DNA of 45,910 nt from an uncultured Sulfolobales archaeon. Lineage in GTDB: Archaea > Thermoproteota > Thermoprotei_A > Sulfolobales > NBVN01. The stretch covers positions 1-45,910 of the forward strand of contig CALIBI010000019.1 in NCBI GenBank assembly GCA_938045815.1, read 5' to 3'. Of this stretch, positions 20,265-33,330 are shown piece after piece. Below the pieces are notes generated by a model that searched no databases, was not told the DNA's origin, and saw nothing but the letters and a program-made list of their open reading frames with translations. Both the position numbers and the translations under genes were made by a program. Numbering within the stretch: the first letter of the stretch is position 1; each line of letters opens with the position of its first letter.

Positions 20265-21257
20265 CTAGATCTCGTACGGTACTACGTAACCCTTATTCTC
20301 TCTCCCACCAACAATCACGTAGTATTCGTTATCGGGTACTGACTTCTCGAGCACCCCGGAAATCCTTAATAGTCCTCCTCTATACAGGAGGAAATTGTAT
20401 TCTGCCTCATAACTAATTACCTCTTTAATCTTAACCCCCTCAAGAACCCTATCTACTCGAGTTCTTGAAGGGTAGAAGAGAGATCTACAGTCTCCCCCGA
20501 GGACCTCAGCTACCAGGCTTACAGGCTTGATTGGTTTCAGAACTAGCTCACCATACCTGTAGCTCCTATTATCAACAAACGTGAAAGTTATTGGCACTCC
20601 TTTAAAACACGTGAACTTGTAGGGTGGTGTTATCTTGATGTATGTTTCTGGTTCTATTCCTAAGATTCTTGAGTTTTCCAAGATTTTAGTCATGATTTTT
20701 TCTTCAGGTAATTTATCTATCTCTAGGTCTGCCTGAACAAATTCCAGTGCTTCCCTACAGCCGTATATAACTAGATCAACATCTGAGTGAGGACCGTGAA
20801 TACCTGCGAGAATAGATCCCGTAATACCCATACTACTAACACTTAAGCCTGTAAGATCGCTAATGATGTCCGATACCTCAACACTAACTAACTCTATAAA
20901 ATCACTAACATGTTTTCTCAATTCCCGCAGCTTTTCCTCAGGTTTAAGCCATTCTACAACTTCTGAGGTTCTGACTACCGGTATTGAAACACCTAGCGTT
21001 GGGTCGTGAAATCTGTTTCTAGCTTCTGAAGAAACTCGTAAAACCTCCTCAACACTATACTCCCTAAGCACTCTCTCGTAATAAGAGCTCCCCCTACCCC
21101 AGAGAGTAGGCTTTTTTGAAGGGACGTACTTGAGGTAAGCAGCTATTAAGCCGTTTGGGTGTGTGTTCCCGATAACTAAGTATATTCTCTTATCTCGATC
21201 AATTACTAAGTCATGGTCTAGAAAACTCCTAGTCTCAGACGGTTCGCTACCAATCAT
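20265..21257 (-). CDS. Nucleotidyltransferase-domain protein (pol-beta superfamily)
   Basis: GITGSILAGIHGPHSDVDLVIYG matches the minimal NTase GS...DxD motif. Confidence 0.75.
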   Translation of the reverse strand: MIGSEPSETRSFLDHDLVIDRDKRIYLVIGNTHPNGLIAAYLKYVPSKKPTLWGRGSSYYERVLREYSVEEVLRVSSEARNRFHDPTLGVSIPVVRTSEVVEWLKPEEKLRELRKHVSDFIELVSVEVSDIISDLTGLSVSSMGITGSILAGIHGPHSDVDLVIYGCREALEFVQADLEIDKLPEEKIMTKILENSRILGIEPETYIKITPPYKFTCFKGVPITFTFVDNRSYRYGELVLKPIKPVSLVAEVLGGDCRSLFYPSRTRVDRVLEGVKIKEVISYEAEYNFLLYRGGLLRISGVLEKSVPDNEYYVIVGGRENKGYVVPYEI

Positions 21258-21347: not shown

Positions 21348-22508
21348 ATGAGAGAACTTAGTATTACTGTGGCTGGGGGGTTCCTGGGTTCTTCATTAGA
21401 GTTTGTTGAAGGTCCTCTCACGCTAGTTATCGAGGGGAACAGGATTCACAGCATATCTCGCGGGATTGGAGGCGCTCACGACATGCGTGGTTACGTAGTT
21501 CTCCCCCCTCTAGCCAATATGCATACCCACATACTAGATTACGTGAGTCCTGAGATTGGTTGGGACCTAGATATAGATTCTGTTGTTGGTGAGCCTTACG
21601 GGCTTAAGTACTTAATACTTAGTAAATCAGAGACTAGTCTACTAGACTCAGTAATAGGTGAGGCTATAGAGTCTATGCTGGGTTCAGGCGTAGGATACGT
21701 TGCTGAGTTTCGTGAGTTAGGGGTTAAGAATCTCAAATTAGGTAGCAAGAAACTGAGAACCCACTACGTTCTTAGTATGTCTTCAAAACATGAGAGAGTA
21801 AGTAGTGAGGTGGAGGAAGTCATCACGTACTCGGACGGCATTGGTATTTCCTCACCACACTACTTCGCTTTAGAAGATTTGGGGAGTATCTTCAGGTTAG
21901 CCAGGAATTCAGGTAAGTTGGTTCATTCACACATTTCAGAAACGAAGGATACGCATGAGGAAAGAGACTTAGAGAGGCTTTTGAGTGTTGGTAGACCTGA
22001 CGCAGTAGTTCACGGTGTTTGGTTAAGTTCTGAAGAACTTCAGCTTCTTAAGGACCTAAAAATCACTCTAGTTTTGTGTCTTAGGTCTAACATGTGGTTT
22101 ATGTCTGGCTTACCTAAACTGAAGAGTATTTATGAGGTGGGGGTTGACGTAGCTGTAGGCACGGACAACTTAGGGTGGGTTAAGCCTGACTTATGGAGGG
22201 AGGGTGAGTTACTCTTACTTCTTGCTCGTAACGTTGGGGTTAATGATCCGGTCTGGGTTCTTAAAGCTCTGACCAACACTAACCCAGTAGGTGTGCAGAA
22301 CTACTTGGTTGAGGGGGCTTACGCCAACATATTATTTGTGAAGTACTCTGGAACTCCTCTCGAGAGAGCACATAATAAGCACCTAGCGCTAGTTAAGAGG
22401 GGAGGGCCTGAGTTAGTTGCTGCTCTCATGCTTGATGGTAAGTTTAAGCACTTAGGTGGTGGGCTTGAGGAGACCTTACGTGAGAGTTTACGCGACTATA
22501 TCGATTGA
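21348..22508 (+). CDS. Amidohydrolase-superfamily aminohydrolase (deaminase type)
   Basis: Metal ligands NMHTH, HSHISET (HxxE motif of deaminases), VVHGVWLSSEE and VGTDN. Confidence 0.85.
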   Translation: MRELSITVAGGFLGSSLEFVEGPLTLVIEGNRIHSISRGIGGAHDMRGYVVLPPLANMHTHILDYVSPEIGWDLDIDSVVGEPYGLKYLILSKSETSLLDSVIGEAIESMLGSGVGYVAEFRELGVKNLKLGSKKLRTHYVLSMSSKHERVSSEVEEVITYSDGIGISSPHYFALEDLGSIFRLARNSGKLVHSHISETKDTHEERDLERLLSVGRPDAVVHGVWLSSEELQLLKDLKITLVLCLRSNMWFMSGLPKLKSIYEVGVDVAVGTDNLGWVKPDLWREGELLLLLARNVGVNDPVWVLKALTNTNPVGVQNYLVEGAYANILFVKYSGTPLERAHNKHLALVKRGGPELVAALMLDGKFKHLGGGLEETLRESLRDYID

Positions 22509-23127
22509 CGGCAAGATAGCTTCAAAGACCGGTGACTCGAGACTTAGTTGCCCGTACGACAAATTAAGACTACACTCTATGAGATCAGTAGTTGATGGCG
22601 TTATGGTGGGTGCTAACACGATCATTAAGGATGATCCTCAACTCACTGTCAGACTTGTTGAGGGGAGAAACCCTGTAAGGATAGTCGTTGACGGTTCTCT
22701 GAAAATACCTCTTAATGCGAGAGTGCTTGACGTGAGTACAGCACCAACAATCATAATAACATCTTCTGTTGCTGAGACATGGAAAGTAGAGCAGCTGAGG
22801 AGATTAGGGGTAGATGTAGTTATTGTGGAGAGTGAATCAACTCAAGTAGACATGAGTAAAGCCCTAGAAATACTGTATGAGAAAAACCTGAAAGACTTAC
22901 TTGTTGAGGGGGGAGGCACCCTACTATGGTCCCTAGTTTCGCAAAAACTCATAAACGAATTCAGAATAACTATCTCCCCCTACGTAATAGGAGGTAAAGA
23001 CTCAGTATCTCTAGTTGAGGGTGAAGGTTTCGGTAACATGAGTGAGTGGCTAAAACTAAAACTAATAAATCACAAGATCTGTAGGTGTGGTGATGAAATA
23101 CACCTAGTGTATAGAGTTGAAGACTAG
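22480..23127 (+). CDS. arfC: 2,5-diamino-6-(5-phosphoribosylamino)pyrimidinone reductase (RibD C-terminal/ArfC family)
   Basis: VYATISIDGKIA, GVMVGANTIIKDDPQLTVR, LLVEGGGTLLWSL. GTG at 22480 with GAGGAG at 22467-22472 is the preferred start. Confidence 0.85.
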   Translation: MRVYATISIDGKIASKTGDSRLSCPYDKLRLHSMRSVVDGVMVGANTIIKDDPQLTVRLVEGRNPVRIVVDGSLKIPLNARVLDVSTAPTIIITSSVAETWKVEQLRRLGVDVVIVESESTQVDMSKALEILYEKNLKDLLVEGGGTLLWSLVSQKLINEFRITISPYVIGGKDSVSLVEGEGFGNMSEWLKLKLINHKICRCGDEIHLVYRVED

Positions 23128-26249: not shown

Positions 26250-27977
26250 CTAAATTCTTAAAGAACTAACTAACGCTTCCGAAATCTCGCTAGTCTTCAC
26301 CAAGCCTCTCAAACCTACTTCCCTAGCTATTAGCGTTGACTGGAGTGGCATGAAGCCTTGAGTTCTCAGCCACTCAATATCGCTTAAGACTTCTCTTACG
26401 GTGCCAAGACGTTTTATAGAGCCATTATCTAACACGACCACTTTATCAGCTACTTCACTAATTAGCTGGAGATCATGCGCTACTAAGATTACGGTGCCCC
26501 CGCTCTCGACAAATCTTCTTAAAGATAACAGAAGCTGGAGACTCCTCTTATAATCGAGTCCTGAAAACGGTTCATCCAAGACTAGTGCTTGAGGCTTTAA
26601 AGCAAGTATTGAAGCTATAGCTAACCTGTGTTTCTCACCAAAACTAAGGAGGTGGGGTGAGATATCTAACGGCTTAACTAAATCAACTATCTCGAAGGCT
26701 TCCTTAATTCTGCTTTCTATTTCATCTTTCTTTAAACCAGTCTTCTTAAGAGAGAAGCTCATTTCCTCATATATTGTGCTCGCGAAGAATTGAGCTTCTG
26801 GATTCTGCATTACCATCCCAACGATCCTAGCTAATGTGGACGTGGGTGTTTTTCTAGTATCTCGCCCTGCTACAATCACGCTACCTTTCACAGGCTTTAA
26901 TAAACCGTTAAATTGCTTCACTAGAGTTGTTTTCCCAGCACCGCTATGTCCTATAATAGCTACGAACTCCCCCCTACAGATGTCTAAATTAATGTTTTTG
27001 AGAACCCATGGTAAGTCCTTCTTGTACCTGAACCAGAGATCTCTAACACTGATTAAGGAGTCGTTACACGGCTTAATAGACTCCTCTACGGGAGCGATAT
27101 GATGTAGCGTGCTTGTGTTAAGCCCTACCTTATTTATTATGTTGAGCGCCTCATTCAGTGTTACAGGCATCTTATTTCTGATGAGGTTCGGCTTACGCTC
27201 ACTTATCTTATAGAAGATTTCAGAAACTTGTGGAGGTCTTACTCCAGTTTTCTGAATTAACTCAACATCATTAAATATCTCTTGCGGTGTTCCTTCACCC
27301 GTAAACTCGCCGTCCTTCATTATCACGATCTTGTCAGCATGTTCCGCTATCCACTCAATTCTGTGCTCAACCACTAGTAAAGAAAGATTCGTCTCTCTCT
27401 TCAGCTTCTCGACTAGACTTAATATCCTGGTGGTTCCTACGTGATCCAGCATAGAAGTAGGCTCGTCTAAAACAAGAATTTTAGGTCTTAGAGCAAGTAC
27501 TGATGCTATGGCTAGTACTTGCTTCTCTCCGGAACTAAGTTCGTGTGGATCTTCAAACTCTCTGCCTCTAAACCCAATAAAGTCTAGGATTTCAGTTACT
27601 CGGTTTTCAATTTCCTTTCTATCTAGGTTTAAGTTCTCCAACCCAAACACTAACTCCTCAAGAACTGTAGGCATTATAACCTGGAGTTCAGGATTCTGAA
27701 AAACAAAACCTATATGTCTGCTCAGTATTTCAGGTCTTACTTCTTTAGTATTCATCCCTAGAACACTCACGTTACCTTTTAATTCTCCTCTTATTACGTG
27801 CGGTATCATCCCGACCAGGGTGTATAAGAATGTTGACTTGCCGCAACCTGAAGGACCCATGATAACTACTGTTTCTCCCTCTCTCATTTTAAAGTTAAGG
27901 TTTTTTAGAACCCACTCATTACTAGCTGAGTACTTAAACCATAGATCCTCAACACTAATTACTGTAGACATACTCAC
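26250..27977 (-). CDS. ECF transporter ATP-binding protein, tandem A-A' fusion
   Basis: Two ABC domains: GPSGCGKST/LSSGEKQ/LDEPTS and GHSGAGKTT/LSFGEKH/LDEPFSGLD. Confidence 0.92.
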   Translation of the reverse strand: MSMSTVISVEDLWFKYSASNEWVLKNLNFKMREGETVVIMGPSGCGKSTFLYTLVGMIPHVIRGELKGNVSVLGMNTKEVRPEILSRHIGFVFQNPELQVIMPTVLEELVFGLENLNLDRKEIENRVTEILDFIGFRGREFEDPHELSSGEKQVLAIASVLALRPKILVLDEPTSMLDHVGTTRILSLVEKLKRETNLSLLVVEHRIEWIAEHADKIVIMKDGEFTGEGTPQEIFNDVELIQKTGVRPPQVSEIFYKISERKPNLIRNKMPVTLNEALNIINKVGLNTSTLHHIAPVEESIKPCNDSLISVRDLWFRYKKDLPWVLKNINLDICRGEFVAIIGHSGAGKTTLVKQFNGLLKPVKGSVIVAGRDTRKTPTSTLARIVGMVMQNPEAQFFASTIYEEMSFSLKKTGLKKDEIESRIKEAFEIVDLVKPLDISPHLLSFGEKHRLAIASILALKPQALVLDEPFSGLDYKRSLQLLLSLRRFVESGGTVILVAHDLQLISEVADKVVVLDNGSIKRLGTVREVLSDIEWLRTQGFMPLQSTLIAREVGLRGLVKTSEISEALVSSLRI

Positions 27978-28795
27978 ACGCCCCTTAAGAAGTAATATGT
28001 AGAGAAACCTGTTAACTTAAGGATAATTAACGACGCGTATATTACTGCTAGCAGCAACAGTGATATTGTGTCTTTCCTACTCCATCTAGGAGGGAAGTAG
28101 TATGATCTTTTAGGGTACGCTCCGAACCCTCTAACACTTAAAACTATGCTTAAGTCCCACACGTAACTCATCATCCTTATTACTAAAGGAACGAAAATAG
28201 GAACTACGTAAACTATCTTCTTGACAGGATTTCTTGAATCAACTTCTAGTCCTCTAGCTTTCTGAACATCAACTATGTTCCTTATCTCCATGAACGTGTA
28301 GGGGAGTAAACCTAAGGCTAGGGCAAACATAAAGCCTGCTTTATAAGGTAGCCCGGCTCTAGTGATGACGTAATGTAAGTCATACATCTTAGTAGTACTC
28401 ATGACTAACAAGAAAGCCGTAATTGGGTTTACTATCAAGAAGAACTTCCCAGTTCCTACCAAGAGACCTACATCAGTTAATCTTATGTTAGCTAGAGGGA
28501 AAGTAGCTACGTAGATGCCTACGTCCTGATACATAGATGCCCACACTAAAGTAGTCACTAGAAAGAATACTATGCTGTATGCTATAGTTAAAATGGCTCT
28601 TTTCACAGATATTTTAGCGAGTATTAGCCCTACTATAAGTGATAAGTACACGAATACTGAAACAGAACCATCCCACTGACTAACCACGGAAGCTGAGAAA
28701 GCTAAGACAAACCAAGCTAATTTCACACGAGCATCTAACCTATGTATTACGGACTCCCTAGGAATGTAGAGCCCTGATAGAGACACTTTAGTCAC
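27974..28795 (-). CDS. ECF transporter transmembrane (T) component
   Basis: CbiQ/EcfT features: SVIHRLDARVKLAWF, VDVQKARGLEVD, VIRMMSYVWDLSIVLSVRGFG. Overlaps the ATPase gene. Confidence 0.9.
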   Translation of the reverse strand: MTKVSLSGLYIPRESVIHRLDARVKLAWFVLAFSASVVSQWDGSVSVFVYLSLIVGLILAKISVKRAILTIAYSIVFFLVTTLVWASMYQDVGIYVATFPLANIRLTDVGLLVGTGKFFLIVNPITAFLLVMSTTKMYDLHYVITRAGLPYKAGFMFALALGLLPYTFMEIRNIVDVQKARGLEVDSRNPVKKIVYVVPIFVPLVIRMMSYVWDLSIVLSVRGFGAYPKRSYYFPPRWSRKDTISLLLLAVIYASLIILKLTGFSTYYFLRGV

Positions 28796-32010: not shown

Positions 32011-33330
32011 GTGCTTGTATGTTTGAGAGGCTTCATAATATCTATGAGTGAGACGTACGGTCTAGTGAATGACGGACTTGTTGTTTTCGACGACACTACC
32101 GGATTAATAGAGGACGTGGTAGAATGGGATGAAAGAGACTCTGTTAAGTGTGATCTTATTGAAGGAAACGAGTACGCATTAGTAATGCCTGGACTAATAA
32201 ACACTCATACGCACGTACCGATGCTTATTCTCCAGGGATTAGGAGCTGGCTTAACAGGGTTTGATTGGTTAAGGAAAATCTGGTGTGTTGAGGGTTTGCT
32301 AAGACCTGAGCACGTCTACATATCTGCTAAGGCTTCAATACTCTTGATGTTGGAGAACGGTATTACTACTTTCGCTGATCACTATTTCTATGAGGAGGAA
32401 GTAGTTAGAGCTGTTGAGGAACTGGGTGTCAGGGGTGTTCTAGCTAAGACTGTCATAGAGTATAGTGAGCACGCACCAAAACACTCGATTGAAGACTCTA
32501 TTAACTTCGCAATGAGATTTCGCGGGATAGCGAATGATAGAGTAAGAACCATGCTTGGGGTTCACGCAATGTATTCATGCGGCACTGAAACACTGCTTAA
32601 AGCTGTTGAGTATTCTCAAAAGTATGGTGTGAGAATTCACATGCACTTTTCAGAATCTCTGCACGAACTAGAGTATGTTAGAGACAAGTACGGTAGGACA
32701 CCTACCAGCCTAGCAGAAGAACTAGGAATCCTTAAAACAAAGCCTTTACTAGCTCACGCTACGTACCTCAGTAATGAGGATATCGAGACACTCTCTAAGC
32801 ATAAAGTGTATGTAGCTTACTCGCCATTCACGATAATGAGTTGGGGTCAGGATATAGCGAGAGTCAGTGATTTAGTAGAGAAAGGTGTAACAGTGTCCCT
32901 AGCTACTGACGGACCGGTAACAGACGGTGACTTAAGTCTCTTCAAGCAAATGAAGCTAGCCATAGCCGCGCAGTCAAGTCGTTATAAAACACCGATTAAG
33001 CTCCAGCCAAGAGAAGTTCTTGAGATGGTTACTAAGAAAGCTGCAGAGAGTCTTGGAATAGATGATCTAGTCGGGATTTTAGAACCAGGTAAGAAAGCCG
33101 ACATAATAGTATTGAAACCTCCTAAGACTAGGTTAGTGGGCTTGCGTGACAACCCCTTCACCACCGTGGTCTTCAACCTAGGAGACGAGAGCGTTAATGA
33201 CGTGTATGTTGACGGGAAAAAGATAATCTCTAATAAAACGCTACTGAGAATAAATATAGAAAAGCTTCATAAACAACTAGTAGATACTCGCACAAAGCTT
33301 TTTGAGGAAGCTATAGTGTGTGATAGGTAA
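32011..33330 (+). CDS. Amidohydrolase-family nucleoside deaminase (SAH/MTA/adenosine deaminase-like)
   Basis: PGLINTHTHVPMLILQG, HMHFSES, LAHATYLSNEDIE, LATDGPVTDGDLSLF, LGIDDLVGILEPGKKADIIVL. Confidence 0.85.
   Translation: MLVCLRGFIISMSETYGLVNDGLVVFDDTTGLIEDVVEWDERDSVKCDLIEGNEYALVMPGLINTHTHVPMLILQGLGAGLTGFDWLRKIWCVEGLLRPEHVYISAKASILLMLENGITTFADHYFYEEEVVRAVEELGVRGVLAKTVIEYSEHAPKHSIEDSINFAMRFRGIANDRVRTMLGVHAMYSCGTETLLKAVEYSQKYGVRIHMHFSESLHELEYVRDKYGRTPTSLAEELGILKTKPLLAHATYLSNEDIETLSKHKVYVAYSPFTIMSWGQDIARVSDLVEKGVTVSLATDGPVTDGDLSLFKQMKLAIAAQSSRYKTPIKLQPREVLEMVTKKAAESLGIDDLVGILEPGKKADIIVLKPPKTRLVGLRDNPFTTVVFNLGDESVNDVYVDGKKIISNKTLLRINIEKLHKQLVDTRTKLFEEAIVCDR

Follow-up and report, generated by a model that had tools for sequence, protein, structure and literature searches.

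The open reading frame at 21348-22508 (+, 386 aa) of the window, the 45,910-nucleotide stretch of archaeal DNA analysed here, is predicted with a probability of about 90% to encode the archaeal riboflavin deaminase, a 2,5-diamino-6-ribitylamino-4(3H)-pyrimidinone 5'-phosphate deaminase of the MJ0699/PRK07213 family that would act directly after the reductase ArfC. The family to which this amidohydrolase belongs sits beside and co-occurs with the other riboflavin genes, so it is very probably the enzyme of the archaeal deamination step. A sequence-only reading of the window had proposed that the amidohydrolase could catalyse this deamination, and co-occurrence and operon membership strongly supported the proposal. 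If true, it would close a riboflavin step that is experimentally open; the product of this step also feeds coenzyme F420.

Gene pair and start codon of arfC

The window is contig G000:C19, part of an archaeal genome of 1.52 Mb and 98% completeness. The amidohydrolase frame ended at 22508 and, as the sequence-only reading had noted, overlapped a reductase of the RibD/ArfC family. The product of this second gene (22465-23127, +) scored 224.6 bits against TIGR01508, above the cut-off of 186.45, and was the only protein of the window's genome with a RibD_C match. It is a genuine ArfC, the 2,5-diamino-6-ribosylamino-4(3H)-pyrimidinone 5'-phosphate reductase.

The start of arfC had been placed at GTG 22480, with the Shine-Dalgarno motif GAGGAG at 22467 and an overlap of about 29 nt. 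Both elements were present in the sequence and the overlap itself stood, but comparison with relatives made TTG 22465 the likelier start, with an overlap that is then probably 44 nt (22465-22508, +). The reason was that the residues RPYV were conserved in the relatives of the window and that some of these (L014, L015, L016) carried ATG or GTG directly before RPYV. In the window, RPY lay just upstream of GTG 22480 and the V was encoded by this GTG itself; GTG 22480 as the only start was rejected in view of this conservation. Starts at GTG 22456/22459, with an overlap of 50-53 nt, and at GTG 22480, with 29 nt, are possible alternatives. Within the window's family, 15 genomes had both genes on one contig, and in every one of them the two abutted or overlapped on the same strand, judged by profile coordinates; the arfC frame overlapped the amidohydrolase in the 11 of those genomes where the frame was resolved. 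The overlap is real, chance being no reasonable explanation, and it suggests that the two enzymes, which would act one after the other, are translated in a coupled way.

Family assignment and phylogeny

The amidohydrolase matched Pfam Amidohydro_1 with 60.6 bits (cut-off 25, E 2e-16), which placed it in the amidohydrolase superfamily. Amidohydro_1 was the sole domain found; the Pfam matches held neither the cytidine-deaminase-fold domain expected of a RibD-type protein nor the creatininase family domain (PF02633) expected of ArfB. The best NCBIfam model was NF005552 (PRK07213, "chlorohydrolase"), a name that misdescribes the likely function. This model was aligned to residues 14-360 of 386, near full length, with 165.6 bits, and the next best model reached 54.9 bits; the weak matches included models of S-adenosylhomocysteine (SAH) and 8-oxoguanine deaminases. 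The score of the window protein lay below the curated NF005552 cut-off of 294 bits, and five other members of the family in the phylum scored 304.7-342.3.

A quick, unrooted tree with some long branches compared 37 members of the family with six COG0402 paralogs, all of SAH/5'-deoxyadenosine deaminase type. The family members, including MJ0699, were split from the six paralogs on one branch with an SH-aLRT of 100. One of the paralogs was found in the same window: this second COG0402 amidohydrolase (32011-33330, +) grouped with the SAH/5'-deoxyadenosine-deaminase-type proteins, apart from the riboflavin family. In addition, a single-sequence AlphaFold model of the window amidohydrolase had a mean pLDDT of 32, which made it unusable for a check of the beta/alpha barrel.

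Active-site residues and proposed mechanism

Thirteen residues were invariant among the 37 family members. They included the deaminase set H59, H61, H195, E198, H222 and D273, which aligned with TM0936, an SAH deaminase (PDB 2plm) that shares with the window protein the HxH, H and D ligands and the HxxE motif. The deaminase-type HxxE (within HSHISET), HGVWLS and GTDN motifs named in the sequence-only reading were all located, with the key residues intact. All the following positions are on the + strand. The first motif, H59-T-H61-I-L-D64 (HxHxxD, 21522-21539), would contribute two metal ligands, H59 and H61, together with the family-specific D64, and was invariant in the 37 members; all six paralogs had M in place of D64. 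The HxxE motif, H195-I-S-E198 (21930-21941), aligned with H200 and E203 of TM0936 (PDB 1p1m/2plm), and by this homology H195 would be a metal ligand and E198 the proton donor. H222 (22011-22013), which opens the H222-G-V-W-L-S motif, aligned with a conserved His of TM0936 and is the putative catalytic His. In the G271-T-D-N274 motif (22158-22169), the predicted metal ligand D273 and the family-specific N274 were both found in 37/37 members, and N274 was G in the six paralogs. Furthermore, E123 (21714-21716) was invariant in the family and D or E in the paralogs.

Two more sites set the family apart. K87 (21606-21608) was invariant and family-specific, and may contact the phosphate or the ribityl chain. 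The R246-S-N248 signature (22083-22091) had N248 in 37/37 and R246 in 35/37 members, with no R at position 246 in the six paralogs; R246 is a candidate substrate contact. Thus D64, K87 and N274, invariant in the family, and R246 were all absent from the paralogs. Compared with the COG0402 deaminases (TM0936, guanine deaminase and 8-oxoguanine deaminase), the window family differed in having D64, K87, R246 and N274 and in an occurrence tied to riboflavin genes.

In the proposed reaction, the 2-amino group of 2,5-diamino-6-ribitylamino-4(3H)-pyrimidinone 5'-phosphate would be hydrolysed, yielding 5-amino-6-ribitylamino-2,4(1H,3H)-pyrimidinedione 5'-phosphate and ammonia. A single metal ion, coordinated by H59, H61, H195 and D273, would bind a water molecule that H222 and D273 activate. 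E198 would protonate the ring nitrogen, and the hydroxide would attack C2 as in guanine deaminase. The ribityl phosphate may be contacted by the family-specific D64, K87, R246 and N274. In bacterial RibD and fungal Rib2, the same type of reaction in the same pathway falls to a domain with the cytidine-deaminase fold, which belongs to a different superfamily; here a metal-dependent amidohydrolase-superfamily enzyme would take its place.

Comparison with MJ0699 and earlier predictions

In Methanocaldococcus jannaschii (G246:C1), the ArfC was identical to PDB 2azn over all 214 aligned residues, and the member of the amidohydrolase family lay at 624694-625836, two genes past a fibrillarin homologue identical to 1fbn. 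This homologue is presumably MJ0697, and the family member was placed as MJ0699 on that basis. MJ0699 and the window protein shared 29% identity over 288 aa (2e-32), the same invariant residues and the same co-occurrence with ArfC. They differed in that the amidohydrolase and arfC genes of M. jannaschii were 27 kb apart, whereas the window protein is divergent and its gene overlaps arfC.

According to PMC8305020, three riboflavin gaps remained in haloarchaea, with candidates for two of them. Table 6 of that paper, citing Rodionova 2017 NAR, enters HVO_2483/MJ0699 as a "prediction", placed after arfC and before the gap for the phosphatase (EC 3.1.3.104). The main text names no function for it; by elimination, the gap predicted for MJ0699 is most probably this deaminase. 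The sequence-only reading had regarded the archaeal deaminase as not securely assigned. This held for experiment, as the searchable literature, outside which Rodionova 2017 fell, gave no proven archaeal enzyme for this deamination, but MJ0699/HVO_2483 had already been predicted (PMC8305020, Table 6). The deaminase proposal is therefore not wholly new and appears to be an independent rediscovery of a published prediction.

The present analysis added phylum-wide co-occurrence, operons and family-specific residues. A published prediction for a single gene was thereby extended to near one-to-one co-occurrence with operon support across the phylum, and residues to mutate were named. It is also quite likely that riboflavin-making archaea in general, from methanogens to this phylum, use a deaminase of the amidohydrolase superfamily for riboflavin and the F420 precursor, in places translationally coupled to ArfC. 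The family now called "chlorohydrolase" would then get a corrected name, and the step would offer a clean example of two unrelated folds that perform one and the same reaction in separate domains of life.

Co-occurrence with riboflavin genes

The sequence-only reading had suggested a phyletic profile of the amidohydrolase against riboflavin genes. Sixty near relatives were sampled first and then 200 genomes of the phylum that were at least 90% complete. Presence was called at ≥120 bits for the amidohydrolase A1 profile, at ≥100 bits for TIGR01508 (ArfC) and at E ≤1e-6 for PF00885 (RibH). Of the 200 genomes, 81 had both ArfC and the amidohydrolase, 12 had ArfC only, one had the amidohydrolase only and 106 had neither. 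For RibH and the amidohydrolase, 79 genomes had both, three had each one singly and 115 had neither, so that the overlap was 79/82 each way. The amidohydrolase was present in every genome that had both ArfC and RibH (78/78), and the suggested profile came out in favour of the proposal. The Fisher p values for co-occurrence were 1e-41 and 7e-48; these values ignore shared ancestry, as the 200 genomes are not mutually independent and were counted without a species tree. Several joint absences inside groups argue against simple inheritance. In the genus of the window, all three genes were present in G000 and G002 and absent from G001 and G003; in family f9, the three genes were confined to genus g27.

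The 12 genomes with ArfC and no amidohydrolase appeared at first to be counter-examples, but RibH was missing from all of them. ArfC-like reductases without RibH or this deaminase were found in G037, G047, G098, G119, G130, G131, G149, G164, G180, G191, G192 and G232. Three genomes (G074, G138 and G144) had ArfC and the amidohydrolase and gave no RibH match, and the single-contig genome G124 (C1:975009-976073) had RibH and the amidohydrolase and gave no ArfC match. In the Methanococci, the amidohydrolase family was present in 27/27 genomes and ArfC in 26/27, the exception being G263, a genome of only 1.0 Mb. In the genomes of f13, f45 and f41, RibH was present and a second, RibC-like PF00885 match was absent.

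Genomic context and riboflavin operons

The amidohydrolase lay within 150 bp of arfC on the same strand in eight family codes and in both gene orders: f13 (32/32), f33 (3/3), f45 (1/2), those of G116, G074, G144 and G221, and the window's family. The amidohydrolase preceded arfC in all these pairs except in f33, where arfC led. In other groups, away from arfC, the gene was found with ribC-ribH. It adjoined this pair in 10/10 genomes of f11 and in 2/2 genomes of f9, on the opposite strand in the latter; in 3/4 genomes of f7 it had ribC-ribH next to it and arfC no more than 2.7 kb away, and in f18 it was next to ribC-ribH in one genome. Neither arfC nor ribC-ribH was close to it in f26, f6, f5 and most of f18. 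The recurrent adjacency and operons ran against the outcome that the sequence-only reading had held out as damaging, namely orthologs distant from riboflavin genes.

Annotated operons were found in G036 (arfC-arfA(GCH III)-ribB-ribC-ribH-amidohydrolase) and in G110 (riboflavin synthase-ribB-ribH-arfA-amidohydrolase-arfC), with similar ones in G221 and G239. Together these joined the amidohydrolase to GTP cyclohydrolase III (GCH III), DHBP synthase, RibH, riboflavin synthase and ArfC. In the operons of G036 and G110, which belong to two lineages, the amidohydrolase was the only enzyme gene without an assigned function, and the steps without a gene were deformylation, deamination and dephosphorylation. 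Of the genes scanned in operons L148, L157 and L156, none could be recognised as encoding a phosphatase for EC 3.1.3.104. The riboflavin operons L157, L156 and L155 (G110, G221 and G239) carried a riboflavin synthase of the bacterial type (Lum_binding, PF00677).

Assignment of the pathway step

The sequence-only reading had counted another confirmed archaeal deaminase in this lineage as evidence against itself. For the bacterial type, full-length RibD was absent above the TIGR00326 cut-off from the 200 phylum genomes. The TIGR00326 matches of ArfC genomes covered mainly the reductase half, and that of the window's genome was limited to the reductase half of ArfC; weak generic matches to the deaminase half were few, scattered and mostly in genomes without RibH. 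Furthermore, a protein of the creatininase family, which we take to be the family of ArfB, was present in 81/82 amidohydrolase genomes, G159 being the one without a match. Each of the 32 f13 genomes had a single copy, and the window's genome had one separate PF02633 protein (9.5e-49). The creatininase family has many functions, and these proteins are putative ArfB enzymes; deformylation thus has another candidate. With RibD absent and a separate candidate available for deformylation, deamination was left as the step for an enzyme with the active site of a ring deaminase. Guanine deaminase, of the same superfamily, removes the 2-amino group from a 2-amino-4-oxopyrimidine ring.

Three other explanations were weighed against the deaminase assignment. 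The amidohydrolase might instead be the formamide hydrolase that serves the ArfB step and takes formate off the product of GTP cyclohydrolase III, as the operons hold GCH III and no recognised arfB, which leaves that step likewise open there. The wide presence of creatininase-family proteins and an active site of HxxE, His and Asp, which is that of ring deaminases, make this very improbable. The ArfB locus of M. jannaschii is presumably MJ0116. The organism has a known ArfB besides MJ0699 (Grochowski 2009, as cited in PMC9478397), which also speaks against a formamide hydrolase. Just as doubtful is a deamination of the ribosyl substrate before reduction, in the bacterial order, with ArfC reducing the product. 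The positional coupling of the two genes would suit this order, and co-occurrence is blind to the order of steps, but reduction is reported to come first in archaea (Graupner 2002, as cited in PMC8305020; PMC13028884).

The least probable explanation, with a very slim chance, was that the protein is a COG0402 deaminase with a general role on purines or on SAH/5'-deoxyadenosine, found in the company of riboflavin genes without sharing their function. The COG0402 homology and the weak matches to SAH and 8-oxoguanine deaminase models would fit such an enzyme. Against it, NF005552 outscored all other models by over 100 bits, the six SAH/5'-deoxyadenosine-type paralogs grouped apart (SH-aLRT 100) and differed at D64, K87, R246 and N274, and the presence of the amidohydrolase tracked RibH.

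Neighbouring genes in the window

The divergent gene upstream of the amidohydrolase (20265-21257, -) encoded a 330-aa protein that matched the NTP_transf_2 domain weakly and no NCBIfam model. Judged from the translations only, the region 26250-28795 (-) encoded a fused double ATPase and EcfT-like membrane protein that resembled an ECF vitamin transporter.
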